This document shows positions 22,821-49,903 of a stretch of 64,000 nucleotides of DNA, one piece after another. The stretch's first letter is position 1. The number at the start of each line of letters is the position of its first letter. The DNA lies in the IMG/VR virus record IMGVR_UViG_3300008267_000054, positions 52,440 to 116,439 of that record, one strand, 5' to 3'. The notes below the pieces were generated by a model. That model saw only the letters and a program-made list of their open reading frames with translations. It was not told where the DNA came from and did not search any database. This DNA is from a virus. Made by a program: the position numbers and the translations under genes.

Positions 22821-25800
22821 ATGGGATATAGTTTTAAATGGATTTTAGAGCATCTTTCGCAATCCTTTGTTGTAGCATCAGCATCATATGCCGCTAATGC
22901 TGGAACTGCATCCTACGCAATTTACGCCGCCAATGCAGGAACTGCTTCATACGTAACTGCTTCTAATGTCTATGGTCTATATGGTAGTAACTCCATCTTA
23001 TCTGCAAGCTGGGCTTTAACAGCAGCTTATGCAATGAATGGTGGCTCTGGAGGAGGTGGAACTCCAGGAGGTGCTAATACAACCATACAATTCAATTCAG
23101 GTGGATACTTTAGTGGTAGCACTAACTTCACCTTCATATCACAAAGTAATGCGGTTAGATTAACCGGAAGTTTGTATATTACAGCAAGCGGTACTACACC
23201 GGCTGTAACAATAACACAAAAAAACAGTGGTACTACTGGAGTGTTTTTTGTGCACGGACCAAGTGGTAATACCAAGTTTGCATATGACCTACCTTTTAGC
23301 TCAACTGGTATTTATGTAATACCATACGAGTCTGCAACCGGTAGAATTAGTGGTACGAATTATGGATCAGCAGGATTTCAAATTCTTGGTGCAGCATCCC
23401 ACTTAATACTGCAAACAGATAGCGTTACAGCACCTATCAGACTATTACCTGGTACAACGGGAGGTGGTAATGTATTACTATCAGGCTCACTATATGTAAC
23501 TAACTCAGTTTATTTTAGTGGTTTAACAACTACAGCACAAACAAATGTATTAACAATTAACCCAACAACTGGTCAGATATTTTATACAGCATCAAATGCT
23601 TTTGCAACAACACCTGGTATAAATGGTATAGATCAATATATTTCTAGGTTTAGTGGATCTAATCAGTTAGAGACATCTTCAGTGTTCAATGATAGGTCCT
23701 TACTATCATTAAAGTCTGGTCATTTACCATCCCTATTCACCGACGCAGATATATCAGTAGTTTTTGGATCAGGAAGTTGGATTTACAACAATGCTCAGGC
23801 AATATCCGCTGCACAACCTCGAATAACTGCAGCACATAGTTTTGGTAAATATAATACTAATCATGGATCTAATATAGGGTTCAGTGCAAATTATGCAACA
23901 AGTAATGTTGGTGCATATGACTTTGTACAAAACTTATTAGCATCCTCAGCACCAAGGATACATTTTTCTAGTTATTATTCTGGTGGACAGATATTATATG
24001 CTCCATTCGCAGGAGATTTACATTATTTAGGTCAATCGCAACGTACAAACTATGCAATAGTTGCAGATCTAAATAATGGAGACATAATGCGTGTAATAGG
24101 TATCTATTATCCAATTACAGATTCAGATATATTAATAAACACTGTAGCTGATGCAAACTTTGTAGATTCAAGTGGCGGTGCCAATTATACTGGACTAACT
24201 ATAAATTTTAGCTCCATTGACGAGTATATACAAGGTGGTGGCGTAAATACACAAACAAATGGTAATATAGTGTGTTTTTTCTTGGATGGTGGTCCTGATG
24301 GTTTTTTTGATACAAACGCTAACACTGCAAAAAATATTGCAACATCAGCACATGGATACGGAACACATGCTGAAGGGTATTATACACAAACAAGAGGCCA
24401 TTACACACATGCAGAAAATAACAACACAGTAGCAGTTGGATCTGGGTCAAGAGCTTCAGGGTATAAAACAGTTGGAGCGGGAAGATATGGTAATGCAAAC
24501 AATATCTTCACCGCTGCAGGTCCAACGTATTATGTAAAAAATGCAATAATTAGAAGATCTAATTATAATCAAAATTCCTATGATTACTATTATAGTGTTG
24601 GTATTGAACAAGTTGGTTCACCTAATCCAACTGATTATGTTAGTAATATAACGTGGATAGCTGACAATGAACTTGGAACTAGGTTTAATAATGCAGGTTT
24701 CTCTTCACATACTCAAGCAATAAAATGTGTAATACAAATACCATCCCTAGATTATATTGGCATAGTAGAGCTGTTTGCAGGAGAGTATGATAGTGATCGC
24801 TATGTAACAACACTGCTTGATATATTACCTGATGGTATATCATCATCAATAGCAAACACTTATATAACACCAATTGATACCAACACTTTTTTTGAAACAT
24901 ATGATAGTCAATATGGTGGTGGTTCTGGATATGGTGCTTTTTCAATTGGCGTTGAAACTATATCAACTAATTCGGGTTCATTTGCCGGTGGTATATCAAC
25001 AAAAACATATGGGTCAGGATCTTTTACCTATGGTCAAGACTTAAACAATACACACAATAATAGCTTCTTATTTGGCCGGGATGCCGACTCTGCAGCTGAC
25101 GATTCCTTTTTGTTTAGTGTTAACGGCAGCAGTAATTTATATGCTAATGATTATTTTGTTGGGATCAATACGTTAGCACTACCTAACTCTGGATATAGAG
25201 GAATTAGTATAATTGGTACAGCTAGTGTGAGTAATGATTTGTTTGTTAATGCAAACAGTTACTTGGGCAATGGTATATCTGATGTAACAACTATTACCGG
25301 TTCATTGATAGTATCTAACAGCTATCAGTTAATTGGTACAGGTAACGTAACTGGTTCGTTAATAGTATCCAATTCCCTAAGAACAATTGGTACATCACAA
25401 GTCACTGGTTCATTAATTGTTTCCAACTCGCTAAACGTAATTGGTACATCTCGTGTTACCGGTTCATTAATAGTATCAACTAGCTTAAATACTATTGGAA
25501 CAAATACAACAACCGGTTCTCTTTTTATAACCGGATCATCAAGATTAATCGGCGACAGTACAATTACCGGTTCAATTTTAATGACTGGGTCTGCGGCAAT
25601 CTCCAAAGTAAATTATATTGATTTTGTAACTAGTAGTGTCCATCCACATTTAGTCGGTAGAATACATTGGGATAATGACTATGGTACACTTAATATAGAT
25701 TTAGATAGTACTTCTGGTAATGAAGTTATGACCAAAGTTGGTCAAGACAACTTTTACTACATCAAAAATCAAACCGGTGTTACTTTAACAAAGGGTAAAG

Positions 25801-26687
25801 TTATACGAGCATCAGGTACATTAGGAGCATCTGGAAGATTGCTAGGTAATTATATGATTGCTGATGGTACTATACCATATTATTACACTATTGGTATAGC
25901 GGCAGAGGACATAGGTAATGGTGAAGATGGATATGTGTATGAGTTTGGATTACTAAGAGGTATTCAAACTGATGGAGGTAATTACGGTGAGACGTGGACA
26001 GATGGAACTATTTTATATGTTTCCACTACTAATTTAGGAGGACTAACTTCAGTAGAACCAACTGCTCCAAATCCTAAAATGCAAATGGCTATTGTCATTG
26101 ATGCTGATGCATCTAATGGTAGTATTTTTATTAGGCCAGATTTGCGTGGCAATATTAACGACTTACATAATGTAAAATTATCTGCTCCATCTTCTAGTGG
26201 AGATCTATTGGTATATAGTGGATCAGTTTGGATCAATTCAAAACAATTAACTGGGTCTTATGGTTTAACTGGTAGCCTAACAGCAATAAATGGAGGATTT
26301 ACAGGATCATTAAGTGGGTCAGCTACATCTGTAGTAAGTTCATTGGCTAGTAGTACTGGTATTGTTTCATTTAACTATAATGGTTCAACAGCACAGACAG
26401 TAGCAGTATCAGGAGCATCTAGCTTAACTACTAATAAAGTTATTAAGTGGGATGGAAGTGCTTTTGCAAATACAAACATCTCAGATGATGGTAACCTAGT
26501 AAACATTAATAGTAATACCGGTATAACTGGGTCATTCTTTATTAAGTCTGGATTTGGTACACAAACACAACCGGCAATGCAAGTTAACACAGATGGTGTG
26601 TTAGTTTTAGGAGAGTATTCAACAACACCAACAGCAATAGTAGGAGCAATCATATACAGTGGTAGTGATTATTATTTAGGATTTTAA
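22821..26687 (+). CDS. Large tail fibre / adhesin
   Basis: A 1288-residue fibre protein. N-terminal 'SASYAANAGTASYAIYAANA' repeats lead to a Gly hinge ('GGSGGGGTPGGANT'). A head-like segment around residue 508 ('HGYGTHAEGYYTQTRG', then 'HYTHAEN') resembles YadA/trimeric-adhesin repeats. Residues about 815-930 hold six TGSLIVSNSL units. A C-terminal domain begins 'YYIKNQTGVTLTKGKVIRAS' and includes 'DGYVYEFGLLRGIQTDGG', a module I associate with phage fibres that carry an intramolecular-chaperone or carbohydrate-binding end. Similar repeats link it to the gene at 20459. Confidence 0.8.
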   Translation: MGYSFKWILEHLSQSFVVASASYAANAGTASYAIYAANAGTASYVTASNVYGLYGSNSILSASWALTAAYAMNGGSGGGGTPGGANTTIQFNSGGYFSGSTNFTFISQSNAVRLTGSLYITASGTTPAVTITQKNSGTTGVFFVHGPSGNTKFAYDLPFSSTGIYVIPYESATGRISGTNYGSAGFQILGAASHLILQTDSVTAPIRLLPGTTGGGNVLLSGSLYVTNSVYFSGLTTTAQTNVLTINPTTGQIFYTASNAFATTPGINGIDQYISRFSGSNQLETSSVFNDRSLLSLKSGHLPSLFTDADISVVFGSGSWIYNNAQAISAAQPRITAAHSFGKYNTNHGSNIGFSANYATSNVGAYDFVQNLLASSAPRIHFSSYYSGGQILYAPFAGDLHYLGQSQRTNYAIVADLNNGDIMRVIGIYYPITDSDILINTVADANFVDSSGGANYTGLTINFSSIDEYIQGGGVNTQTNGNIVCFFLDGGPDGFFDTNANTAKNIATSAHGYGTHAEGYYTQTRGHYTHAENNNTVAVGSGSRASGYKTVGAGRYGNANNIFTAAGPTYYVKNAIIRRSNYNQNSYDYYYSVGIEQVGSPNPTDYVSNITWIADNELGTRFNNAGFSSHTQAIKCVIQIPSLDYIGIVELFAGEYDSDRYVTTLLDILPDGISSSIANTYITPIDTNTFFETYDSQYGGGSGYGAFSIGVETISTNSGSFAGGISTKTYGSGSFTYGQDLNNTHNNSFLFGRDADSAADDSFLFSVNGSSNLYANDYFVGINTLALPNSGYRGISIIGTASVSNDLFVNANSYLGNGISDVTTITGSLIVSNSYQLIGTGNVTGSLIVSNSLRTIGTSQVTGSLIVSNSLNVIGTSRVTGSLIVSTSLNTIGTNTTTGSLFITGSSRLIGDSTITGSILMTGSAAISKVNYIDFVTSSVHPHLVGRIHWDNDYGTLNIDLDSTSGNEVMTKVGQDNFYYIKNQTGVTLTKGKVIRASGTLGASGRLLGNYMIADGTIPYYYTIGIAAEDIGNGEDGYVYEFGLLRGIQTDGGNYGETWTDGTILYVSTTNLGGLTSVEPTAPNPKMQMAIVIDADASNGSIFIRPDLRGNINDLHNVKLSAPSSSGDLLVYSGSVWINSKQLTGSYGLTGSLTAINGGFTGSLSGSATSVVSSLASSTGIVSFNYNGSTAQTVAVSGASSLTTNKVIKWDGSAFANTNISDDGNLVNINSNTGITGSFFIKSGFGTQTQPAMQVNTDGVLVLGEYSTTPTAIVGAIIYSGSDYYLGF
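25286..25600 (+). repeat. Tandem TGSLIVSNSL repeats
   Basis: Six in-frame units of about 17 codons, for example 'VTGSLIVSNSLRTIGTSQ' and 'VTGSLIVSNSLNVIGTSR'. DNA copies are clearly related (GGTTCATTAATAGTATC-type blocks) but not identical. Confidence 0.8.
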
Positions 26688-35402: not shown

Positions 35403-37790
35403 ATGGCCGAAAAAATTGTCAGTCCTGGCGTCTTTACAAACGAGAAAGATCTCTCGTTTTTACCGTCAGGGGTTGCTCAAATAGGAGCAGCAATCGTGGG
35501 TCCAACTCCAAAAGGACCTGCCTTTGTACCAACTATCATCAGAAACTTTGAAGAATTCAAAGCGTATTTTGGAGACATTAATGAAAACTACTATGTACCA
35601 TATGCAGTTAGAACTTACTTAAAAAGTGCTGCATCTGTTACTATTGTACGTGTTGTATCAGAGGGTGGATATACTACTTCCGGTATTACCTTGTTTTCTG
35701 CATCAGTTGTTTATGGTTTGTTATTACCAACTATTCAAGTTGGAGCAAGCACAGGCAGTGATTTCAGCAAAACAACTTTAGGTACTGGTACTGGTGTAAT
35801 ATCAGCATCTTTTACAATCTCAGGTAGTAATGTAACTGCCGAAGCTAATGAAGTAGCTTGGGCTAAAACATCATCAAACACTGTTGAAAAGGTATTTGGA
35901 TTATCACCATCTGGTCCTAAGAAAGCTTACGCTTACTTGTGGTTCCAGAATGCTGCATCAGCATCTAACCTTATAACAATGTCATTTGCATCAGGTGCAT
36001 ATGCTGTAGGTGGTGGATCTACTATTGACTTATCAGGAGACACATTTGGCGCTTACAGTCCAGCATCAACTCCATGGGTAACATCACAGAGAATTGGTGC
36101 ATCAGGAGCAACTACAAGATTGTTCAAAGTTTACACTTTGGGTGATGGTATTGCAATGAACACCTCAGTTAAAGTATCGCTTGTTAACAACTCACTTGCT
36201 GGTACATTACCTGGTACAGATTATGGTACTTTCACTATGCTTGTTCGTGACTACACTGATACTGATCAACGTCCGATTGTATTGGAAACTTATTCTAATT
36301 TGAATTTAGATCCAGATTCTCCAAACTATATAGCAAGAAGAATTGGTGACAGATCTTATACTGTAGCCGCAAGTGGTGAAGTAACAGCTACTGGAGATTA
36401 TGCTAACGTAAGTAAGTACATCCGTGTATCTGTAACAGATGCAGTTAGAACAAAAGCACTTAGCCCATCATTGAATCCATTTGGTCACGAAGCTTATCTT
36501 GAACCATGGAGCACAGGAAGTAAGTTTCTACCAGCTGCTGTATTAACTACAAGCAATCCAACTATTAACGGTGTATACAATGCAAAAGCATACTACGCTG
36601 TTAGCTATGTTGAAACGGATAACACAAACTACTGGAAGCCATTAGCTTCAGGTTCAGTATCAGGTGCCAACGCTGCATTCAACTTAGATGCTTGCTTAAT
36701 TTCTACTGACTACGGTACACCGCTTGATGGTAATAGTTCAACTACATTAGCTGGTATTGCAGTATCTGCAAGTACACTAAGAGGTCAAGATGTTCCAAAC
36801 ATTGCTAAGTTTACCATGGGTCTACAAGGTGGATTTGATGGAATGGATCCAGCAGTACCACTTAACATTGGAGCAAACATTACCGGCACTAACACTGTAG
36901 GTTTGAATTGTAACGGTGCAACAACTGGCGGTACAAATGGCTACAAGAAAGCTCTAAATGTATTGTCAAATGCTGAAACGTACGACATCAACATGATTGC
37001 AATCCCAGGTGTTACTGTGTTTGATCACACTTTCGTAACAACTAAAGCAATTGAAGTTGCTGAAGATAGAGGTGACTGCTTCGTACTACTTGATCCAGTT
37101 AAGCAAGGTGAAACTGTAGCTGATGCAGTATCTGCAATCGCAAACAGTGGAATCAACACTAGCTACGCAGCTACTTACTGGCCTTGGGTTAAGATTGTAG
37201 ATGCTAATCGTTTGAAGCCAATTTGGGTACCACCTTCTGTAGTACTTCCTCGTGTAATTGCTCAGTCTGACACAGCAGCATTCGAATGGTTTGCTCCTGC
37301 AGGTCTGAACCGTGGTGGTATACAAGATGCAGTTGATGTTGAAGCTAAACTTAGCTTTGCACAACGCGATACCTTATATGAAGCTCGCATCAACCCACTT
37401 GCAACATTCCCAGCTCAGGGAGTATGTGTATGGGGTCAGAAAACTCTACAAACAAAAGCTTCTGCACTTGATCGTATCAACGTTCGTCGTCTGATGATTA
37501 CTCTGAAGAAGTTTATCGCAAGCTCAAGCCGCTACTTAGTATTCGAGAACAATACAAACGAAACTCGTCAGAGATTCATTAACATTGTTACTCCTTACCT
37601 AGAGAACGTAAAAGCTCGTCAGGGTCTGTATGCCTTCCGTGTAGTAATGGATGAAACTAACAACACTCCAGATGTAATTGATCGTAACGAACTTTATGGT
37701 CAGATCTTCTTACAACCTGCGAAGACAGCTGAATTCATTATCTTGGACTTCAATATTCTGCCAACTGGTGCAACTTTTGATAACGCTTAA
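35403..37790 (+). CDS. gp18: Tail sheath protein (gp18-like)
   Basis: The contractile sheath subunit, 795 residues (T4 gp18 is 659; the excess lies in Ser/Thr/Gly-rich surface domains). The N-terminus 'VSPGVFTNEKDLSFLPSG' and 'GAAIVGPTPKGPAFVPTIIR' is diagnostic. The C-terminal core 'RINVRRLMITLKKFIASSSR' and 'YAFRVVMDETNNTPDVIDRN' with 'GQIFLQPAKTAEFIILDFNI' is the inner sheath domain that contacts the tube. Codon use shifts toward C-ending codons as in gp23, consistent with high expression. The tube gene follows. Confidence 0.96.
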   Translation: MAEKIVSPGVFTNEKDLSFLPSGVAQIGAAIVGPTPKGPAFVPTIIRNFEEFKAYFGDINENYYVPYAVRTYLKSAASVTIVRVVSEGGYTTSGITLFSASVVYGLLLPTIQVGASTGSDFSKTTLGTGTGVISASFTISGSNVTAEANEVAWAKTSSNTVEKVFGLSPSGPKKAYAYLWFQNAASASNLITMSFASGAYAVGGGSTIDLSGDTFGAYSPASTPWVTSQRIGASGATTRLFKVYTLGDGIAMNTSVKVSLVNNSLAGTLPGTDYGTFTMLVRDYTDTDQRPIVLETYSNLNLDPDSPNYIARRIGDRSYTVAASGEVTATGDYANVSKYIRVSVTDAVRTKALSPSLNPFGHEAYLEPWSTGSKFLPAAVLTTSNPTINGVYNAKAYYAVSYVETDNTNYWKPLASGSVSGANAAFNLDACLISTDYGTPLDGNSSTTLAGIAVSASTLRGQDVPNIAKFTMGLQGGFDGMDPAVPLNIGANITGTNTVGLNCNGATTGGTNGYKKALNVLSNAETYDINMIAIPGVTVFDHTFVTTKAIEVAEDRGDCFVLLDPVKQGETVADAVSAIANSGINTSYAATYWPWVKIVDANRLKPIWVPPSVVLPRVIAQSDTAAFEWFAPAGLNRGGIQDAVDVEAKLSFAQRDTLYEARINPLATFPAQGVCVWGQKTLQTKASALDRINVRRLMITLKKFIASSSRYLVFENNTNETRQRFINIVTPYLENVKARQGLYAFRVVMDETNNTPDVIDRNELYGQIFLQPAKTAEFIILDFNILPTGATFDNA

Positions 37791-37814: not shown

Positions 37815-38312
37815 ATGGCACAATTAATTCCAGATAACGGCCCTCAAGGTATTTATTATACCAATTACGAGCCAAAAACACAGAATAGATTTATATTGTC
37901 GGTTAGTGGGATACCTTCTTTCATCATGAAGAAGGTAACCCGCCCGAATATTGACTGCGGTGAGGTTATCATTGACCACATCAACCTAGTAAGAAAACTG
38001 AAAGGTAAATGTAAATGGCAAGATATCTCCATGACCCTCTATGATCCGATTGTACCTTCTGGTGCTCAAACGGTAATGGAGTGGGTAAGAACTGCTCACG
38101 AATCAGCAACAGGACGTGATGGATATGCAGACTTCTATAAGAAGGACTTCCAAATCCAAACACTTGGTCCGGTAGGTGATATCGTTGAACAGTGGACTGT
38201 AAAAGGTGCTTACATCAAGACTGCAAACTTTGGTCAATTAGACTGGTCTACTGAGACTCAAGTTGAAATTGAACTTACAATCGGTTTAGATAACTGCTTC
38301 CTAGAGTTCTAA
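37815..38312 (+). CDS. gp19: Tail tube protein (gp19-like)
   Basis: The inner tube subunit, 165 residues, the same size as T4 gp19 (163). Characteristic are the N-terminal 'RFILSVSGIPSFIMKKVTRP', the 'KGKCKWQDISMTLYDPIVPS' stretch, 'GPVGDIVEQWTVKGAYIKTA' and the final 'TEVQ/EIELTIGLDNCFLEF'-type strand. A variant TACTTATA (37791-37798) precedes the ATG by 16 nt, and a strong terminator follows. Confidence 0.95.
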   Translation: MAQLIPDNGPQGIYYTNYEPKTQNRFILSVSGIPSFIMKKVTRPNIDCGEVIIDHINLVRKLKGKCKWQDISMTLYDPIVPSGAQTVMEWVRTAHESATGRDGYADFYKKDFQIQTLGPVGDIVEQWTVKGAYIKTANFGQLDWSTETQVEIELTIGLDNCFLEF

Positions 38313-39521: not shown

Positions 39522-39815
39522 ATGACTAGGAAAGAACTTCAGGAAATCATTCAAGAAGAGTATGTTAATGTTAGACTCGAAGAAGGTCTACTTTCTTGGG
39601 CAAGTGGTGCAGCAGACAATCTTGTTTATGGTATCCTAAATAGAAGAGCGGATATTATGAATAGTAAGATTTTTGATGATCCAAAACTATTACAACTTGC
39701 CAAAGACCTTAAAATGAGTAAGAGTGATTTTGAAAAAAGGGTAACATCAATGTTATCAAAAGATAATAGATTTCTAAAAGCACTGGCAACAGTTAGAGCT
39801 AAGTACGTTAGATAA
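39522..39815 (+). CDS. Small protein coupled to tape measure
   Basis: A 97-residue protein whose stop shares a base with the tape measure ATG. It starts 'MTRKELQEIIQEEYVNVRLE', the second type of leader with I-Q-E and L-E-E. The rest is helical ('PKLLQLAKDLKMSKSDFEKR', 'RFLKALATVRAKYVR'). Position suggests an assembly factor for the tail or hub. Function not recognised. Confidence 0.65.
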   Translation: MTRKELQEIIQEEYVNVRLEEGLLSWASGAADNLVYGILNRRADIMNSKIFDDPKLLQLAKDLKMSKSDFEKRVTSMLSKDNRFLKALATVRAKYVR

Positions 39816-42800
39816 TGGCATTAGACGCAGAAGAGTTTGACTTTGAGGGGTTAGGTAGTAAACTAACTAACACAATACTTGGGAGCTTTAATGAAGCTCT
39901 CGGGAAAATCAAATTTTCTACGATAGGCACCAGCTTAACGGCAGCTTTCAAAGAGGTTAAAATGTCCAAAGTAATTGAAGACAGTTTAACAAAGAGTAGC
40001 GAAGTTAAAGGTGCAATGAAAGACATTCAGAAAAAATTAGAGGATGGCTTTAATAAAATAAAATTTAAGGTAGGTGATATTACGGTACCTGAGTTACCAG
40101 AGCAAGTTGTCAAAGTAACTGCAGATACGTCCGAATTCAAATTACAAGATCAAAAACCAGTAGTAGTACCAGTACAGTATAAGTACGATAAATTCGAGCA
40201 ACAGAAGTTTGATCCAATAACTGTATCTGTTAAATATGAATATCCAAAACCTGAGTTACCAAAAACAGATCTTTTACAGGTAGGTGTTGAACCTGTTTAT
40301 GAAAAACTTGTACCACCAAAAGCACAAGATCTCCCAATAACATTAGTACCAGATACAACAAAGTTAGACGCAGTAAAGCCAACGATTGATACTGGACCAT
40401 TTGAAAAAGTTGGTGATTTGGTAAGAGAGTTCGTTAACCTAACTCAAGAAGCAAATAAGAAAACTAAAGTTACCTCAGAACTCTATTCTAAAATTGTTGG
40501 TATTGCTGAAAAGCTTGTAGCAACAAAAAGAATGGAAAAAGATGCTATTGATCAGATATTAGCTTCTTACCAACAAAAAATGGACATACCACAAGCTGAA
40601 ATTATGGCTGAGGTTGTTGATGTTGATACAAGCAAAGTTGCAGAAGCATCTACCGGTCCAATTGAAGTCGAAGCAAATGTTGGTAAAGTTGGAGGTGGAG
40701 ATTTTAGTAGCATTGAAAAGGCAATGACTGTGCTTATAGGTAAATTAGGTAAGCAACTACAATCCTTATTTAAAACATTTGACAATAAGAAGCTCAATAT
40801 AGCTATACCACCAACAGATCGATTAGATGATTACAAGATAAGCTACGATACTATATCTTCTGCTGTAGATGAATTAAAAACTGAGGTTGGAGAACTATCT
40901 AATCTTGAACTATTCCTATCAGTTTATAGCAAAGATACATACGACATTGTACAAAAGAGAATAGCTGTTGAGAATTTATTAGTAGGTAAAAAAAGGGAGG
41001 AGCTTGATATTGCTGCACAAGTGATTGGCTTAACTAACACGGCATCATTATCAGAATCACAGCTAAAAGCATTAATAGAGAGTAAGCTTGTTTCACTCCA
41101 CAAAGAAGTTGAGTTGAGAGGTTTAATAGTTAACGCTACAGAATCCTATAATACAGCAATACAACAATCTGATTTAGGTAAACTAACAGCGGAGCTTTCA
41201 AGTCAATTTGGTTTGATTGAGGATGAAGTTGCAGCAAAAGCAACTGTACTAGCTTTAGAGAATGAAAGAGTGACTGGCGTTAGAGCACTAACAGCAGAAC
41301 AGATAACTTTACTACAATCGGAGGATGGTGTATTAAATAAAAAGAAAGAGATCTTAAATGCTGATCAGGCATTATTGAATCTTAATAAAACAATAGTAGA
41401 GTCAAACAAAAAGATTGATCTTACTACACAAACACAACAACTAGCAAATCAATTATCTCTGTTATCAGAAGAAGCAAAGTTAAAAGCTGAATTGTTGTTA
41501 CAACAGAAACTTGTAAATGGTGAGGTAGCTGAGCTAACAAACTCAGAAAAATTATCAGTTGTGTTTCTTGACCAACAAGTAGCATCAAGTAAAAAGTTTG
41601 CAGATGCCTTAGCAAAAGTTGGACAAGGGCAAACTGAAATAAGCAATTTGGTTGAGGATCTCGGCTATGATAAAATAGTAGCCGAACTATCAATACAAAA
41701 GAGTTTAACAGAAGCAACAGTTGTTGCACAAGCAAAGAGCCTAATAGCTGCTAAAGTTGCCGCTGGTGAAGCTGCAAAACTGACTGATGAAGAGCTTTCA
41801 CAACTACAAGCACTAAATAATCAAATTAAGAGTAATCAGGAAATACTTGGATTAAAGCAGAGAATTGTTGAGGCAACAAACTCACTATTTAAAACAATGC
41901 AAGACGCAACTGCAGAAGCACTTGCTCTTGAGGGTCCAATGTATACACAGTTAGGCCTAACTCAGGATTTAACGAGAGAAAAAGCATTAGCAATTATACT
42001 CGATGGTCAAAGACGTGGTCTAACCACTGACGAGATTAATATGCAACTTCAATTATTAAAAAATGAAGATGATATATTACAGAAGACAAGAGAGCGAGTA
42101 AATGCATCAAAAGACCTAGAAGCGGCAGCAGACGCATATGCACAAGCAGTTAGACAAGCTGATGCAGACATACAAATAAAGAGTTTAATTGTAGCACTTC
42201 ATTTAACAGAAGATGAGGTAGCACAGGAAGCTAGATTACTTGCGTTAAAGAATCAGCAGGCAGCAGCCGCCGGCAAATTAACTAAACAGGAGTTAGAGCA
42301 AATAAAAGCCAACAACGGTTTACTTAATAGTCAAGTACAGCAGTTAAAGTTAAACAATCAAACATTAAGGCACAGAAGAGAAGAGGTAGAATTAGTTGAA
42401 CACGTTGCAGAGTATCAAAGAGAGGTAAATGAGGAATTAGAAAAATACTCAATGGGTTGGAAAAAGACAAAGGCAACGATGTCAGCAATCATTAAGGATC
42501 CAGCCTTTGCAAAAGGAGTGTTTTTAGCAGGTGCAATAACAAGTGTTGAGAAATTACACCACTCTATGCACGAGTTTATGGATGTTGGGATGACTGCTGG
42601 TGAGGGTGTAGCAGCAACATTCAAAACACTCTCCGTCGAATCTGTTATGGGTTTGAGTAAGAGCAAAGACGTACTTACCAGTATGGTTCAAGAAACTGGT
42701 AATATGAATACCTTAAATAAGGACCAACTAAACTCAGTTGGTAAAATAGCTGCAAGTTATGGTCTTGCCGGTGATGAAGCTTTTGGTTTGTCAATGGCAA

Positions 42801-44653
42801 TATCAAGAATGCCAGGTGAAACAAAAGATACAGCTGCTAATTTTGATAAAACTGTAGCAAGTGTAGCAAAAATGAAAGGTGTGATGCCGTCTCAGGTAAT
42901 GAAAGAGATGGCAAAAAACACAGGCAATATGGCATTATTCAGCAAGGGTGGTGCAGAAGGTTTTGCCAAAGCCGCAGCAACAGCTAAAAAAATGGGTATT
43001 GAGGTTTCTTCAATGGCAAAAGCTGCTGAAGGATTATTGGATTTTGAAAATAGTATCAATAAGCAGATGGAGGCGTCTGTCTTACTAGGTAGAGAAATAA
43101 ATCTTGATAAAGCAAGAGAACTAGCTCTGTCAGGTGATTTGGAAGGTGCAACCCAAGAAATAGTTAGAAATGCTGGAGGTGCAGCTGCATTCGATAAAAT
43201 GAATGTACTACAAAAGAAAGCATTGGCTGAGGCAGCAGGTTTAACTGTTGAAGAACTACAAAAAGCAGCAAAAGCACAACAAGATGGTACCGCTGCAACA
43301 CAAGATCAAGCAAACTCAGCCGAAGAGGGACTTGGAAAAGTATTAAAGCTGGGTGGTGGTCTTGTAACCGGCTTTGGAGCAATTGCACCAATGCTTATGA
43401 CTATTACAAGTTTAATGAGTATAATGAACTCCGGTACTGCCTTAGGTGGTATGATTAAAGGTATGTCTAACTTTGCTGGCTCAACTTTTGAAGCAATAAA
43501 AGGTCTAACTAAAATGGTAGCCTTAAATGTTGGTAAAGCACTTGGATTTGGTGAAGGTTCAAAAGAAAAAGCTGGTGGTATACTTAGTAAGGCCTTTGGT
43601 AAGAAAACACCTGAATTACCAAAACCTGAAGCACCAGCAGCCGGAGGTGGAGCAGGTCCAGCAGACAAGGCAGATAAATTGAGTAAAATAAACGCAGGCT
43701 CATTACTAAAAGGTGCAGCAGCAATGTTAGTTGCAGCAGCAGCAATTTATGTTTTCGCAAAGGCAGTACAGGAATTAGATAAAGTAAAAGACTGGAAAAA
43801 TGTTGCGATAGGACTAGGTCTATTTGCAGCATCAATGGCAATAACAGCAGGAATATTATCACTAGCAGGACCAGGAATTGCAATAGCAAGCTTGGCATTA
43901 ATACCTTTTGGTTTAGCTTTAATGATGTTTGCTAAAGCCATCGATATAGCAGCACCAGCAATAACAATGTTGGGAGCAGCATTTGGATCCTTTGTAGAGA
44001 TTGTTAGTAAAAATATAGGTGGATTTATTGCGGTTGCTTTAGGTTTACCATTACTAGCAGCAGGTATTACAACACTAGGAATAGCATCTATATTTGCATT
44101 ACCAGCAGCAGGAGCACTTACCATACTTGGAATTGGTATAGCAGCTTTTGGTAAGTTGGCTGGAGCAGCTGCTCCAGGTATCGTTGCAGTCGCGACTTCG
44201 TTAGCAGGTATATCGAAAGTTGATCCAGTTAATTTTAAGAGTATTGGTGACGGCCTACTACATATAGCAAAGGGATTAGGAGCAATAGGATTGTCAGGCT
44301 TATTAGCATTGCCTGTACTTAGCATGCTTGGCAGTATGTCGGCATTTGGTGGAGCACCTACTACACCTACCACACCGGCAACAACTACACCAAAGGCAGA
44401 AGCAAAAGCAGTTGCACCTGCACCAACTACGCCAATAGCAGCTCCGGCAGCAGCCGCAGCAGCCCCAGCAACAACAACAGCAACACCTGCAGCTGCACCA
44501 AAAGCAGAGGCTGGTGGAGATATGAAAGCGTTGATGGGTAAAATGGATCAGCTAATAGCAGTATTGCAAGCAGGTGGAACGATACAAATGGATGGTAAGA
44601 AGGTTGCAGACATAGTACAACGTAATATACGAACAGTAAAATTCGCTGATTAA
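39815..44653 (+). CDS. Tape measure protein
   Basis: The longest protein in the window, 1612 residues; it should set tail length and later be ejected. The N-terminal about 900 residues are helical with coiled-coil-like Gln/Glu/Leu repeats (for example 'LLQQKLVNGEVAELTNSEKL'). Gly/Ala/Met-rich membrane-like segments occur near residues 900, 1182 and 1297-1470 ('AAMLVAAAAIYVFAKAVQEL', 'LGLPLLAAGITTLGIASIFA'), a hallmark of tape measures. A Pro/Ala/Thr linker (about 1512-1570) precedes the C-terminal 'QMDGKKVADIVQRN' motif. T4 uses gp29 for this role; the present protein is much longer, implying a longer tail. Confidence 0.9.
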   Translation: MALDAEEFDFEGLGSKLTNTILGSFNEALGKIKFSTIGTSLTAAFKEVKMSKVIEDSLTKSSEVKGAMKDIQKKLEDGFNKIKFKVGDITVPELPEQVVKVTADTSEFKLQDQKPVVVPVQYKYDKFEQQKFDPITVSVKYEYPKPELPKTDLLQVGVEPVYEKLVPPKAQDLPITLVPDTTKLDAVKPTIDTGPFEKVGDLVREFVNLTQEANKKTKVTSELYSKIVGIAEKLVATKRMEKDAIDQILASYQQKMDIPQAEIMAEVVDVDTSKVAEASTGPIEVEANVGKVGGGDFSSIEKAMTVLIGKLGKQLQSLFKTFDNKKLNIAIPPTDRLDDYKISYDTISSAVDELKTEVGELSNLELFLSVYSKDTYDIVQKRIAVENLLVGKKREELDIAAQVIGLTNTASLSESQLKALIESKLVSLHKEVELRGLIVNATESYNTAIQQSDLGKLTAELSSQFGLIEDEVAAKATVLALENERVTGVRALTAEQITLLQSEDGVLNKKKEILNADQALLNLNKTIVESNKKIDLTTQTQQLANQLSLLSEEAKLKAELLLQQKLVNGEVAELTNSEKLSVVFLDQQVASSKKFADALAKVGQGQTEISNLVEDLGYDKIVAELSIQKSLTEATVVAQAKSLIAAKVAAGEAAKLTDEELSQLQALNNQIKSNQEILGLKQRIVEATNSLFKTMQDATAEALALEGPMYTQLGLTQDLTREKALAIILDGQRRGLTTDEINMQLQLLKNEDDILQKTRERVNASKDLEAAADAYAQAVRQADADIQIKSLIVALHLTEDEVAQEARLLALKNQQAAAAGKLTKQELEQIKANNGLLNSQVQQLKLNNQTLRHRREEVELVEHVAEYQREVNEELEKYSMGWKKTKATMSAIIKDPAFAKGVFLAGAITSVEKLHHSMHEFMDVGMTAGEGVAATFKTLSVESVMGLSKSKDVLTSMVQETGNMNTLNKDQLNSVGKIAASYGLAGDEAFGLSMAISRMPGETKDTAANFDKTVASVAKMKGVMPSQVMKEMAKNTGNMALFSKGGAEGFAKAAATAKKMGIEVSSMAKAAEGLLDFENSINKQMEASVLLGREINLDKARELALSGDLEGATQEIVRNAGGAAAFDKMNVLQKKALAEAAGLTVEELQKAAKAQQDGTAATQDQANSAEEGLGKVLKLGGGLVTGFGAIAPMLMTITSLMSIMNSGTALGGMIKGMSNFAGSTFEAIKGLTKMVALNVGKALGFGEGSKEKAGGILSKAFGKKTPELPKPEAPAAGGGAGPADKADKLSKINAGSLLKGAAAMLVAAAAIYVFAKAVQELDKVKDWKNVAIGLGLFAASMAITAGILSLAGPGIAIASLALIPFGLALMMFAKAIDIAAPAITMLGAAFGSFVEIVSKNIGGFIAVALGLPLLAAGITTLGIASIFALPAAGALTILGIGIAAFGKLAGAAAPGIVAVATSLAGISKVDPVNFKSIGDGLLHIAKGLGAIGLSGLLALPVLSMLGSMSAFGGAPTTPTTPATTTPKAEAKAVAPAPTTPIAAPAAAAAAPATTTATPAAAPKAEAGGDMKALMGKMDQLIAVLQAGGTIQMDGKKVADIVQRNIRTVKFAD

Positions 44654-47600
44654 TGGCTAAACTATTTGCAAATAAATTCGATTTAGATAGACTACCGGAA
44701 CCAAAGAAACCTAGTGGTGACATTAATCAGGGAAGTGTGGTTATTAATAGAACTACGTCTGAAAATAAAATAACAGACCCTAATATACAAACACAGTTAG
44801 TTGATCAAGGCAGTAAGATTACTGATCCTAAACTTGACATAAAACCAATTGATCAGGGAAGCAAGATAACTAATCCCGAAACTAAAGTTGATTTAGTAGA
44901 TCAAGGTGATAAGATAACTAATCCAAATATAGAAGTACAAAAAGTTATATCTGGTGAATTAATTACTAATCCTAATATTCGCATTGAACCGGTTGAACCA
45001 ACTCAATTAGAAACACAAGCACTGAACAGTAGATTGAGAGAGGTTGATAATGAGAAGCAGGGTATATTGACTAGTGATCAGATACTTGAAAGACAGGGTG
45101 TTAGAAAAAGTTCAGCTGGTGAATATGTGAGCTCTGTGAAAGTGGAGCCGTTTGGAACTAACCCAGTTAACCAAGGTGGCATTAGCGTTGTAAGAGCAAC
45201 AGAACCACAAGACAAGATTAGCAATGTTGAAGTGAGTAAGGTTGATCAGGGTAGTAAAATTGTAGATCCAAAGATTGAAACTAAACTAGTTGATCAAGGT
45301 GAACAAATAGTTAATCCAAATACTCAAGTTCAAAAAGTAATTGCTAATGAGCTTATAACTAATCCAAACTTAGAGATCAAACCTATTGAACAAGGAGATC
45401 GAACAGTAAATCCAAACACAACTGTACAGAAAATACAGCCTGGAGATAGGATTGTAAATCCTAATATAGAGGTTAGTCCGGTTAATGCTAATGAATTAAT
45501 TATAAATCCAAATACAATTATACAAAGAGTTGTAGCGGATGAGCTTATAACTAATCCTAACATACAACCAATATTAACAAAACCAGTTGATCCAAATGTA
45601 CAAGTACCAAACAATGTAGTCGGAGTTGGTACAACAATTCTATTTCCACGAAGCATATCGTTAAAGAATAGATTAGAGCAGTCTGATTTAGGTACAACAA
45701 GACACTTACCGGAGTATCTTTTATCAGACTTAAACACCGGCATAATTGATATAACAAGTCAAAATTTAATACCAAAAACATCACAAGTAGATGTACAAAA
45801 AATCAGCTACCAGGACACTGTCTTAAAACAAGGAGGTATCGAAACAATATTAAATGATGTTGTTAGTATTGTTAATCCTTTTAAATTTGGACAAACTGAG
45901 GTTGAGCAAGGTAGCGTTACTATTAAGAATTTACAAACCGTAATAAAAAAGACTAGTCCGGTTGAGATTAAGAAAGTTGCAGTTGGTGAACGTACGATTG
46001 ACCCAAAAACCGAAATAGTAAAAGTAAAATCAGGGGAGCGTACAGTTGATCCAAAAACAAAAATAAAACCAATAGTAGCAGGAGAAAGAACAACTGATCC
46101 AAATACAAAAGTTGTAGCTATTAAACCAGGTGAACGCACCATAGATCCAAAAACAAAAATAAATCCTATCATACCAGGAGAAAGAACAACCGATCCTGAT
46201 ATCAAGATACCATTAGTACAACCTGGAGAAAGGACTATTGATCCCAAGATTGAGATTAAACCCATTGCAGTAGGAGAAAGAACTATTGATCCTAAAATAG
46301 TAATACAACCAATCACACCGGGTGAAAGAACAACTGATCCACAATTAGAAATTAAACCAATTGTAGCTGGGGAAAGAACGTTTGATCCAATGTTGGAGAT
46401 ACCATTGATTGAACCAGGTGATAGAACTATTGATCCAAAAACAGTAGTAAGACCGGTAGAACCAGGTGAAAGGACAACGATTGTAGAAAATAGACTTTAC
46501 CTATTCCCACAATCAGATGATAAAATATTTTACACTCAAGAACCTGAGGTATTTGTAAACACATATGATATATTTCCAAGTGATGGATATATCCCATTAA
46601 CAAGTGATGGAAGATTCAATGAGTATAGTACAGACCTAGCGTATGTCTCTGCACTTAATAGTCTACAATTAACGGAGAATGGTCAAACAAAATTAAAAAG
46701 TGCAATACAACCCAATGACTTACCTGGACAGGGAACATATCAGGAAGTTGTATTGGGTGGGGCAGCTGATAGTTCGGGTGTAATATTTTGGTCACACAAT
46801 ACTGATCCAATAAAAATACTTAAACCAAATGGTGGTGCAAGTAGGTACAATCAAGTTGATGCTTATGTACAACGTGGTACTGGTGTACTATCCAATGAAA
46901 GTAAATTAAAAACAGCTGGATCTGAGGATGCACCAGCATATGTTGAAGAAATAGCTATAGAAGGTGGATTTACTGATTTAGTAAAACCACTAAACTTCCC
47001 ACCAGCACAGCATGGTGATCCAACACTACCTGGTGGTTATAGGTTGTTAAACTATGGTGAGATACAAAGACGTAGAGAGAGTGGTGAAGGTAGAAATCTT
47101 GACTTTACATACAATTTAGGTGACATTAAATTGGATCCATATCCACAACGAATTGGAATGCCTGACCGTGGTGCTGATACATTAAATACAGCATACAATA
47201 AAACAGGAAATGATTTTGTTGCAATGAAGTTTGAATCTGTTAGAGATAGTGTAACAATACAGTTTAGATCTTTCTTAAAAGGATTTACAGACAACTACAC
47301 AGCCAACTATACCGATGTAAACTATGTAGGTAGACCTGATACACTCAAAGTATTTAAAGGTACTACAAGACAGTTAAGCATATCTTTTACAGTGCCAGTA
47401 TTTAGTGAGGATGAGATTAAGGTTGTCTATGAAAAGTTAGAAGAGTTAATAAAAATATCATCAATTGGTAAACGAGATGGTATATATATGCAAGGACCAT
47501 TTTTAAGAATGACTGTTGGTGGATGGTGTAAAAGGACACCTATAATTGTTAGCTCACTTAAATTTGAAACAAATCCAACAGAATATACGTGGGATATCGA

Positions 47601-47712
47601 AAGAGAAATACCACAAATAGTTGAAGTTAGTATGGATTGTACAGCTCTATCCGACAACACTGGAAAAGGATTCTTACAAGAAGGAACATTTATACAATAC
47701 GGTAATAGATAA
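44653..47712 (+). CDS. Baseplate/tail protein with 16-residue DP-GERT repeats
   Basis: A 1019-residue protein directly after the tape measure. Most of residues 40-608 is built from three arrays of 16-residue units; the last is ten units in exact register, such as 'IDPKTKINPIIPGERT' and 'TDPQLEIKPIVAGERT'. The pattern is D/N-P at positions 2-3, alternating hydrophobics in the middle and G-E/D-R-T at the end, which suggests a regular beta-solenoid or fibrous shaft. The last about 155 residues ('VRDSVTIQFRSFLKGFTDNY' onward) form a globular domain reminiscent of tube-initiator/baseplate proteins. Call by position and C-terminal pattern; repeat function unknown. Confidence 0.65.
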   Translation: MAKLFANKFDLDRLPEPKKPSGDINQGSVVINRTTSENKITDPNIQTQLVDQGSKITDPKLDIKPIDQGSKITNPETKVDLVDQGDKITNPNIEVQKVISGELITNPNIRIEPVEPTQLETQALNSRLREVDNEKQGILTSDQILERQGVRKSSAGEYVSSVKVEPFGTNPVNQGGISVVRATEPQDKISNVEVSKVDQGSKIVDPKIETKLVDQGEQIVNPNTQVQKVIANELITNPNLEIKPIEQGDRTVNPNTTVQKIQPGDRIVNPNIEVSPVNANELIINPNTIIQRVVADELITNPNIQPILTKPVDPNVQVPNNVVGVGTTILFPRSISLKNRLEQSDLGTTRHLPEYLLSDLNTGIIDITSQNLIPKTSQVDVQKISYQDTVLKQGGIETILNDVVSIVNPFKFGQTEVEQGSVTIKNLQTVIKKTSPVEIKKVAVGERTIDPKTEIVKVKSGERTVDPKTKIKPIVAGERTTDPNTKVVAIKPGERTIDPKTKINPIIPGERTTDPDIKIPLVQPGERTIDPKIEIKPIAVGERTIDPKIVIQPITPGERTTDPQLEIKPIVAGERTFDPMLEIPLIEPGDRTIDPKTVVRPVEPGERTTIVENRLYLFPQSDDKIFYTQEPEVFVNTYDIFPSDGYIPLTSDGRFNEYSTDLAYVSALNSLQLTENGQTKLKSAIQPNDLPGQGTYQEVVLGGAADSSGVIFWSHNTDPIKILKPNGGASRYNQVDAYVQRGTGVLSNESKLKTAGSEDAPAYVEEIAIEGGFTDLVKPLNFPPAQHGDPTLPGGYRLLNYGEIQRRRESGEGRNLDFTYNLGDIKLDPYPQRIGMPDRGADTLNTAYNKTGNDFVAMKFESVRDSVTIQFRSFLKGFTDNYTANYTDVNYVGRPDTLKVFKGTTRQLSISFTVPVFSEDEIKVVYEKLEELIKISSIGKRDGIYMQGPFLRMTVGGWCKRTPIIVSSLKFETNPTEYTWDIEREIPQIVEVSMDCTALSDNTGKGFLQEGTFIQYGNR
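44773..45012 (+). repeat. Array 1 of 16-codon repeats (5 units)
   Basis: Five consecutive 48-bp units coding for example 'TDPNIQTQLVDQGSKI', 'TDPKLDIKPIDQGSKI', 'TNPNIEVQKVISGELI'. Confidence 0.9.
45262..45597 (+). repeat. Array 2 of 16-codon repeats (7 units)
   Basis: Seven 48-bp units, for example 'VNPNTQVQKVIANELI' and 'TNPNLEIKPIEQGDRT'. The last unit is degenerate. Confidence 0.88.
45997..46476 (+). repeat. Array 3 of 16-codon repeats (10 units, perfect register)
   Basis: Ten uninterrupted 48-bp units coding [I/T/V/F]-D-P...G-[E/D]-R-T. Third codon positions vary between units, so the protein pattern rather than the DNA is conserved. Confidence 0.95.
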
Positions 47713-47715
47713 GCA

Positions 47716-48015
47716 ATGATAAGTAGATATTCATTTAGCAAGCTAAATAAGAACACAGCTGGTAAACAAGTTTATACTAGTTTAAGCTTTCCAATAATTG
47801 AAGAGCAAGAAACAGACACATACATTATAACAAATAGTGCTGATAGGCTTGATAGTCTGGCTTATAAGTTCTATGGTGATGCAAAGTACTGGTGGGTATT
47901 AGCAATGGTAAATAATTTAGGTAAAGGAACTTTGGTTGTTGAAGGTGGTATACAATTAAGAATACCAGCTAATCCGTCAGATATAGTTAATTTACTAAAA
48001 GAAGAAAATCAGTAA
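47716..48015 (+). CDS. gp53: Baseplate wedge/LysM-like protein (gp53-like)
   Basis: A 99-residue protein with 'DRLDSLAYKFYGDAKYWWVL' and 'NNLGKGTLVVEGGIQLRIPA', the LysM-like pattern shared by T4 gp53 N-terminus and phage P2 gpX-type tail proteins. T4 gp53 is 196 residues, so only the LysM-like part is present here. It should clamp baseplate hub and wedge. It is spaced 3 nt after the repeat protein and 1 nt before the hub-like gene. Confidence 0.75.
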   Translation: MISRYSFSKLNKNTAGKQVYTSLSFPIIEEQETDTYIITNSADRLDSLAYKFYGDAKYWWVLAMVNNLGKGTLVVEGGIQLRIPANPSDIVNLLKEENQ

Positions 48016-48016
48016 T

Positions 48017-49903
48017 ATGGGTGTGTTTTCGTCAAAAGCCGTTCCAAGCAGTGTGCAAAGTGAACTAAATGCAAGAGCTTCAATACAAGCTAGTGACGCT
48101 TGGTTTGCATCAAGAGTTAATTGGGTTCACATTATGAGTTTTTGTGATGGTTGTAGTTCTACTAATGTAGAGCAATTATATTCCCTGAAGTCTTTAAATA
48201 TATACCAAGATGGTGGTACTTTTAGCGGACAGAGGCCTACACCTATTGTTGAATCTATTCAAGTTAAAGCACAGGGAAATCTTGGAACAACAAGATCCTG
48301 TACCATAAAGATAATTGCATTCACACAAGCACAGCTAGATGAGTTAACAGCTTGTTATGGTATACCAAGTATGAGTGTGAGAGTTCAATTTGGTTGGAAT
48401 AAAGGAGCCAATGATACTAGTGCACCAAGTCCATTAATTGGTGTTATGACAGATAATGAAGCTATTGGTGCAATAAATGATCGCAGATCAACATTTGCTA
48501 ATTACGATGGTCTTCAGGGTCTTGTGGGTAAGTGGAGTATTAATTTTGTAAAGGAGTCTATGTGGTGGGAATTTACTTTAGATCTCATGGCAGCATCATC
48601 ACCAGTATTATCAAGACCGTTAGAAGATTTTACAAGCCAATGTTATTGTGATAGAGTAGCGCAAGGTAGTGAGGATACTGAAAAAGTTAGTCAAGGAACA
48701 TCCGCTCTCAGAGCAAAGCTAATTCAATACATAGAAAAGCCAGATACTAAAGAGGAGGGTGTTTACAAGATACAACTAAACCACAGCGAGAGAGATCAAC
48801 TTGGAGCCTACGCAGGTGGGTTGATGGGCAAATTAGCTTCAAAGATTGGTGTTACCTTAGATACAAAAGAAGCATACATATCGTTTGGAAAATTGCAAAA
48901 GATAGTAAACGATTACTCTTTTTCACAAGCAGCAGGTAAATCATTAATGGCTATTATAGACTCAACTACTTATGGCACAATATCATATAAATCACCGGGA
49001 TACACATCAGATCCTGATATATGCATATATCCAGGTATTGATCAACCTAATGATGGAGGACTAGATGGTATTAAGAATGTACCAACTTGCAAAGTAACCG
49101 ATGGAGTGGATATTAATAAAGTACTATTAAATTGCATATTTCTTAATAAATGTATTGAGGACATTGGTAAACAAGGTACACTGCAAGATTTCTTTGAAAA
49201 AGTGTTTAATGGAATGAATCAAGCAGCTGGAGGTATATACGAGCTTAGTCTTGTTGATAATGGTGGTGAAACAAAATCTAAAGTACCAATCTTAACAGCC
49301 ATTGATCTTCAGAAGTTTAAAAAGGAAGTTGCTGTATATGAACTAAAGGCTGGTCCAACAAGTGCTGTTATAAGAGATATTAAATTGGATCTCAAACTAA
49401 CAGATGCAATGAAAGCACAGGCATTGTACGCTGGAGTGAGAAAGAATTCAAATAGTAGTCCATGTGATGAGGCTCGTTTTAGAAATGAACTAAAGGGATC
49501 AATTAATAAGACACTACCAAGCCCAGTAACACCACCCAAATCAGATTGTGGAACGGAGTGCAAAACTAAAGAAGAACACGAAGCTGAAAAGTCATTGGCA
49601 GACGATTATAAGGATATGTTGTCAGATACAAATGATGTATCTAAAGAAACAATTAGATCGAGGTTAGTTGAAGAATATAATAAGAACGCTGAAAAGGATT
49701 TATGTAAGGATGTGATAGTACCTTATGAGTTTTCCTTTACTGTTGATGGTATTGGTGGCTTTGCATTTGGTCAACTAGTTACTTGCAACCTCCTTCCGGA
49801 AAAAGTTAAAACAACTTACGTATATCAAATAACTGCTGTTGAGCACAGTATAACCTATGGCGACTGGACAACAACTGTAAACACAGTAGCAAGATACAAA
49901 TAA
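48017..49903 (+). CDS. Baseplate hub-like protein (gp27/gpD-type)
   Basis: A 628-residue protein. The N-terminal part has a beta domain ('VESIQVKAQGNLGTTRSCTI', 'MSVRVQFGWNKG') and the C-terminal strand set 'VPYEFSFTVDGIGGFAFGQL', 'YVYQITAVEHSITYGDWTT', a signature of hub proteins that form the pseudo-hexameric ring at the tail tip. A large charged insertion ('CKTKEEHEAEKSLADDYKDM') lies between. Several Cys may pair or bind metal. No lysozyme domain is visible. Identity as the gp27-like hub is probable rather than certain. Confidence 0.6.
   Translation: MGVFSSKAVPSSVQSELNARASIQASDAWFASRVNWVHIMSFCDGCSSTNVEQLYSLKSLNIYQDGGTFSGQRPTPIVESIQVKAQGNLGTTRSCTIKIIAFTQAQLDELTACYGIPSMSVRVQFGWNKGANDTSAPSPLIGVMTDNEAIGAINDRRSTFANYDGLQGLVGKWSINFVKESMWWEFTLDLMAASSPVLSRPLEDFTSQCYCDRVAQGSEDTEKVSQGTSALRAKLIQYIEKPDTKEEGVYKIQLNHSERDQLGAYAGGLMGKLASKIGVTLDTKEAYISFGKLQKIVNDYSFSQAAGKSLMAIIDSTTYGTISYKSPGYTSDPDICIYPGIDQPNDGGLDGIKNVPTCKVTDGVDINKVLLNCIFLNKCIEDIGKQGTLQDFFEKVFNGMNQAAGGIYELSLVDNGGETKSKVPILTAIDLQKFKKEVAVYELKAGPTSAVIRDIKLDLKLTDAMKAQALYAGVRKNSNSSPCDEARFRNELKGSINKTLPSPVTPPKSDCGTECKTKEEHEAEKSLADDYKDMLSDTNDVSKETIRSRLVEEYNKNAEKDLCKDVIVPYEFSFTVDGIGGFAFGQLVTCNLLPEKVKTTYVYQITAVEHSITYGDWTTTVNTVARYK

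Follow-up and report, generated by a model that had tools for sequence, protein, structure and literature searches.

The window analysed here, a stretch of 64,000 nucleotides that is part of a 116-kb virus record, encodes a set of tail genes in the order sheath, tube, PF12322 protein, 97-aa ORF, tape measure protein (TMP), protein X, LysM/gp53-like protein and hub-like protein. PF12322 is the T4_baseplate family, and its member is encoded after the tube gene. The features are as follows.

35403..37790, + strand: tail sheath protein (PF04984, E 1.3e-14)
37815..38312, + strand: tail tube protein, gp19-like (phrog_4542, E 4.9e-24)
39815..44653, + strand: TMP, 1612 aa (by position and by BLASTP, 8e-19, to the L033 protein)
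44653..47712, + strand: protein X, tube-initiator-like, 1019 aa, carrying the arrays (C-terminal fold predicted)
44653..44724, + strand: N-terminal peptide of X (MAKLFANKFDLDRL...), common to L010/L011 (helix at aa 2-9 in the model, pLDDT about 60)
44770..45009, + strand: array 1, five 16-aa A modules, aa 40-119
45259..45594, + strand: array 2, seven 16-aa A modules, aa 203-314, the last one degenerate
45631..45762, + strand: single segment, aa 327-370, by eye like a threefold module of L010 and the 44-aa B module of the Mel group
45994..46473, + strand: array 3, ten unbroken 16-aa A modules, aa 448-607
47209..47679, + strand: predicted tail-tube-initiator domain, aa 853-1009 (pLDDT mostly near 90)
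47716..48015, + strand: LysM/gp53-like baseplate wedge protein (phrog_7145, E 2e-14)
48017..49903, + strand: hub-like protein (by position; relatives at the same place in immuto and Mel-JY01)

The TMP of L033 matches phrog_1272, tape measure, with E 1.5e-10, and the window TMP has the conserved TMP block (E 1.6e-43); a block of 130 residues is common to all 31 TMPs examined, the window's included. A PHROG search with the TMPs of L012, L010 and L065 gave no match, and the TMP was taken throughout as the longest upstream frame ending beside X. Elsewhere in the window, 54-base tandem repeats lie at 20728-20848 and 25294-25502, within ORFs 20459-22792 and 22821-26687.

The 16-residue units of protein X

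Unit positions and shuffling confirm the claim of an earlier note on this DNA that X holds 22 units of 16 residues in three arrays (5+7+10), the last ten of them unbroken. The units start at aa 40, 56, 72, 88 and 104 in array 1, at aa 203, 219, 235, 251, 267, 283 and 299 in array 2 and, in constant 16-aa steps, from aa 448 to 592 in array 3, which ends at aa 607 (base 46473). Over aa 26-640, the fraction of residues identical to the one 16 positions on is 0.287, compared to at most 0.130 in 500 shuffles at any lag from 5 to 99, and a motif derived from the units occurs 22 times in X, compared to a shuffled mean of 0.2 and a maximum of 2. The pattern D-P-K...G-E-R-T given in the same note is exact for array 3, but arrays 1 and 2 need the looser general form [I/T]-[T/I/V]-[D/N]-P-[N/K]-[I/T/L]-x-[I/V]-x-[P/L/K]-[V/I]-x-x-G-[E/D]-[R/K/L], with Pro4 present in 22/22 units, D or N at position 3 likewise in 22/22 and Gly14 in 17/22. 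Additional degenerate units, recognized by eye, flank the arrays at about aa 24, 187, 315 and 432.

Given the same residue, codons in array 3 match at 0.48, the expectation from local codon usage also being 0.48, and identical residues share codons at 48% both within arrays and between arrays. Codon sharing at chance level implies that synonymous sites are saturated, hence that no recent DNA duplication has taken place, and further that the units are old and kept by selection at the protein level. The repeat lies outside described families, as had been supposed: X gave 0 Pfam or PHROG families at E<=0.1, a PDB-sequence search with X gave no match over the arrays, and profile searches of PDB sequences with arrays A1 and A3 gave none.

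Full-length X was modelled by AlphaFold2 with a 30-row alignment. Over the arrays, the monomer has pLDDT of about 30-40 and no secondary structure; the ten-unit array alone, modelled as a monomer with a register-rich alignment, has mean pLDDT 35.9 and no fold. Since the arrays are predicted to lack fold and strand stacking as monomers, the solenoid or extended beta fibre originally proposed for them is unsupported. Predicted disorder in all oligomeric states had been named as speaking against that proposal; disorder was found for the monomer, and the statement reaches that state only.

A tube-initiator domain behind the arrays

The model of X contains one confident domain, at aa 853-1000, with pLDDT mostly near 90. 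Structure comparison bears out the initial reading of the C-terminal domain as tube-initiator-like, with matches to baseplate tube initiators at E 9.9e-8 in Foldseek and Z 10-11.7 in VIA. The same tube-like barrel is present in P1 (9ay5_G, Z 11.7), in the AFP/PVC type (Afp7/Pvc7; 6j0n_b, Z 10.8) and in Mu (9ki1_0, Z 10.6), a set of tube initiators to which that of pyocins also belongs, and the fold also matches T4 gp48, the baseplate tail tube cap (5iv5 chain BE, Z 10.0, 140 residues, 3.9 Å). Chain BE comprises 165 modelled residues with numbering to at least 358, which points to gp48 (364 aa) as its identity, gp54 being too short at 320 aa. Over half of gp48 would accordingly lack a model in 5iv5 and, with only ~165/364 residues modelled, T4 may also have a chain of untraced course. 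Differences from X are that gp48 has 364 aa in all, with no array reported there in the parts of the literature available to us; a profile search of PDB sequences found no sequence similarity between the two.

Gene position points the same way. The X gene lies between the TMP and the LysM/hub genes (window 39815-49903), as expected of a tube initiator, and both in immuto and in Mel-JY01 the TMP adjoins the X orthologue, with a hub relative downstream. T4 gp48 shares this place straight after the tape measure gene (29-48-54), and so does P2 gpU (PF06995; P2 order TMP, U, hub D), which at 480 bases is short, unlike X. When PF06995 was compared with 30 family members, 1/30 matched weakly (E 0.041, outside the Pfam cut-off) and the window X did not match. 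By predicted fold and gene place, X is a tail-tube initiator. Initiators of the Mu gp43 type are described, in the portion of the source available, as a hexameric ring that starts the tube, and gp43 has a helix-rich LysM domain where X has its N-terminal module array (PMC11915804).

A further likeness is to tape measure proteins and their chaperones, in that length would be tied to tail length and can be expanded. X differs from TMPs in having the tube fold, and no homology to them was found in the searches made; a two-unit A HMM gave no match among distinct TMP sequences, so that A units are unseen there.

Relatives of X and the count of modules against tape measure length

A tblastn search with the domain returned 7 records, including Rhodothermus phage RM378, Flavobacterium immuto phages, Microcystis phage Mel-JY01 and a 484-kb uncultured phage (LR756508). 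Viral contig scans added two large groups, Mel-like and immuto-like (Imm), two near relatives of the window (L009/L010 and L011) and the small array-free groups L066-L068 and L087-L092. Among the first 66 sequences, 47 X proteins are distinct, and the complete ones range from 446 to 2927 aa. No match came from the scan of genome contigs or from a scan with the LR756508 domain, and the DNA pattern of two consecutive A modules recovered just the near-identical L002/L007 contig from viral contigs. By eye, the N-terminal peptide of the window X resembles the N-termini of other groups.

Across 17 X proteins of the Mel group, residues 1-450 contain 43 matches to the A motif derived from the window (mean 1.7 and maximum 7 in 300 shuffles), and L010 and L011 add 7, with spacings mostly of 16, 18 or 34. 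The motif shows no enrichment in 14 Imm-type and L066/L067 proteins, where 2 matches compare with a mean of 0.7 and a maximum of 4 after shuffling, and is absent from X of the 484-kb phage. The two-unit A HMM is weak in the Mel group, where the best domain scores 8.4 bits and one shuffled protein reached 6.3; homology of A units in that group is therefore argued from motif count and spacing. Judged from the sequences, the A repeat is an undescribed module common to distant phages.

In Mel-group X, the 16/18-residue motif is followed by a second module, B, of about 44 residues in 8 to 22 copies, whose profile had no match in 20 shuffles per protein and fell below threshold on the window segment aa 327-370. 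Seen at L005:2022-8789 and the Mel-group loci, B is an aromatic module (xFFDIxxxxTxxGFHxFAQLYDTKYxPESSIFDWDG) in a tube-initiator-like protein. The X orthologue of the 484-kb phage (L003:3807-8546) has about 52 acidic 17-residue units, with a net array charge of -27 per 100 aa. Low-complexity T/G/P-rich C-terminal extensions follow the X barrel in L049, L053 and L057, which also have the longest tape measures among the sixteen Mel-group records.

These sixteen are the distinct records with complete X and TMP (15 viral contigs and Mel-JY01), the set excluding duplicates (L036, L044, L045, L051, L054, L058-L062), near-copies (L032, L042), truncated X (L034, L043, L046, L055, L063) and truncated TMP (L047, L048). 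TMP length served as a stand-in for tail length throughout. To count modules, the stretch between aa 155 and the first B was divided into A slots of 16.7 aa and the number of B units was added, every slot and every unit counting as one. The resulting module count follows TMP length with r=0.99 and 23.3+-0.9 TMP aa per module (n=16), and with the near-copy L038 removed r is again 0.99 (n=15). Tree correction leaves r=0.98 over 15 contrasts at 23.15 TMP aa per module, with the same sign in 13/14 informative contrasts, and none of 20000 permutations reached the correlation. A free regression assuming no unit length returned 23.0 TMP residues per B module (R2 0.983) and equated one B module with 15.8 A residues (bootstrap 14.4-17.6), which matches the 16-aa period. 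The leave-one-out rms error of TMP prediction is 15 aa, or about 1%. The near-pair L052/L056, with TMPs of 1293 and 1292 aa that are 89% identical, differs in X: compared with its partner, one member is short of 47 A residues, equal to three units, and has three extra B units; as read from these sequences, it is the best natural experiment for a one-for-one exchange of A and B.

A held-out test used the formula as frozen beforehand. The last viral contig scan (36 loci) yielded three new distinct arrayed X proteins, L083 (=L084), L085 and L086, for which TMPs of 1361, 1341 and 1347 aa were predicted and open frames of 1377, 1366 and 1391 aa observed, the L086 frame measuring 1391 aa stop to stop and 1356 aa from the first Met. 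The errors of 16, 25 and 44 aa compare with 63, 52 and 77 for the training mean. In two of the three X proteins the B units are in places spaced more widely (93 and 71; 98 and 86), as would be expected if one or two units had been missed.

Other measures in the Mel group relate to TMP length less closely. Correlations are r=0.88 for the N-part of X (tree-corrected 0.79), r=0.86 for array length in residues and r=0.69 for the B count alone; a nearest-pair sign test on N-part length in residues gave 7/10 (p=0.34). The non-array remainder of the N-part also tracks the TMP (r=0.84, slope 0.37), as does the C-part of X (Spearman 0.77). The TMP segments before and after the conserved block correlate with module count at 0.60 and 0.885, compared to 0.99 for the whole TMP. 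Hub length, the control, has a tree-corrected r near 0 with TMP length.

Outside the Mel group the relation varies. Among 13 Imm records, N-part and TMP correlate with r=0.76 (tree-corrected 0.68) and a slope of 0.77, equal to 18 X residues per 23 TMP residues; this set leaves out duplicates (L006, L015-L017, L019, L029), L014 (TMP cut) and L020 (X cut). LR756508, with about 52 units of 17 aa and a TMP of 1604 aa, is about 10% off the formula. The suggestion in the earlier note to compare copy number with tail size among relatives proved fruitful, module number going with TMP length in the Mel group. In the window's group of three, N-parts of 849, 711 and 588 aa go with TMPs of 1612, 2222 and 1841 aa and no positive relation is seen. 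The two longer TMPs (L010:1200-7868, 2222 aa; L011:2712-8237, 1841 aa) have long N-terminal arrays of a 19-residue unit, YDKFxLPKxxxIxVxVxY, in roughly 30 copies by eye, and the window TMP has a few degenerate 19-aa units near aa 105-185; omitting the 19-aa array by hand makes the group monotonic, at n=3 only. Against the rule stand L066/L067, with long TMPs of 1187/1167 aa yet N-parts of 209/212 aa, and L087-L092, where X is short (465-466 aa) and array-free and the TMP has about 610 aa. The module–TMP rule thus holds strongly in the Mel group and moderately in the Imm group; for the window it is hypothetical.

A proposed ladder matched to the tail, and competing explanations

Based on these findings, we consider it somewhat more probable than the reverse that X is the tube initiator of a contractile-tailed phage and that its N-terminal module chain serves as a ladder matched to tail length, with about one module per ring. 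The C-terminal barrel would start the tube, in the place held by T4 gp48, Mu gp43 and P2 gpU, and the N-terminal part would be a chain of A modules (16 residues) and, in relatives, also of B modules (44 residues). Each module, short or long, would pair with about 23 TMP residues, roughly one tube ring. Unfolded when alone, the chain would be laid from the baseplate upward on the growing tail, along the TMP or the tube wall, one module engaging about one ring. One ring or one TMP stretch per module would explain that unlike modules count alike. This proposal presumes that the chain runs along the tail, that its modules bind rings or TMP, and that the count holds for the array of the window as well.

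The yardstick comes from T4, for which the source, as far as available, gives 23 tube rings of 40.6 Å (PMC3004832); 590 TMP aa over 23 rings is 25.7 aa per ring. By this measure 23.2 TMP residues correspond to about 37 Å, and one module thus to about 0.9 ring. A 16-residue chain could span 37-40 Å if fairly extended, at about 2.4 Å per residue. Besides the exceptions given above, it counts against the ladder that the 23 aa per module fall slightly under the T4 value and that the fit has an intercept of 563 TMP aa for which the ladder offers no account.

A bolder version, which we put forward tentatively and hold rather less probable than not, has two parallel tapes in a large phage family, the TMP and the module array on the tube initiator, with six chains climbing the tail. 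One module would serve each hexameric ring and the conserved N-terminal peptide would lie at the far end; modules of 16 and 44 residues would be equivalent because each spans one ring, and the genome would record, in the number of modules, how many rings the tail has.

The accepted view is that a single protein, the tape measure, determines how long a tail becomes. In one phage group, a countable array on a structural ring protein predicts TMP length to about 1%, and two unrelated-looking modules are interchangeable one for one, which suggests that tail assembly has a second component resembling a ruler. Should the modules count tube rings, a sequence would reveal how many rings a tail has, and changes to the number of modules in a laboratory phage system could serve to test length control. 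The open literature searched, PMC11948020 and PMC8718954 among it, gave no account of tube-initiator arrays that scale with the TMP, or of a second tape.

Of the competing explanations, the one that survives best, although we regard it as improbable, treats the array as a chaperone built into X. Many short motifs on one chain would bind multivalently and coat the TMP before the tube polymerises, to be displaced by the tube afterwards; with about 23 TMP residues covered by each module, the number of modules would follow TMP length. The tail-assembly chaperones of phage lambda coat the lambda TMP in this manner. Scaling directly with TMP residues, the predicted unfolded monomer array and the adjacency of the X and TMP genes in the window and immuto all agree with such a role, and TMP-coating chaperones are described for long non-contractile tails in the part of the source available (PMC9022992). 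However, an array fused to a structural ring protein would remain in the virion, and no TMP repeat of about 23 aa was found in the Mel-group TMPs tested.

A self-folding beta solenoid or fibre, its repeats stacked into a rigid rod pointing outward from the baseplate, appears very unlikely. The strict 16-residue period, the alternating hydrophobics and the length changes in steps of 2 (16/18), which preserve strand register, would suit it, but the monomer is without a predicted fold and an outward rod gives no reason for scaling with the TMP or for the equal counting of 16-aa and 44-aa modules. Least credible is an unselected low-complexity linker that grows by slippage and follows TMP length through shared ancestry alone: array type and length do vary widely between groups, with some relatives array-free, and the arrays are predicted to be unfolded, but synonymous sites are saturated while residues are kept, the correlation persists after tree correction (r=0.98), and in L052/L056 the loss of A is offset by a gain of B at constant TMP length.
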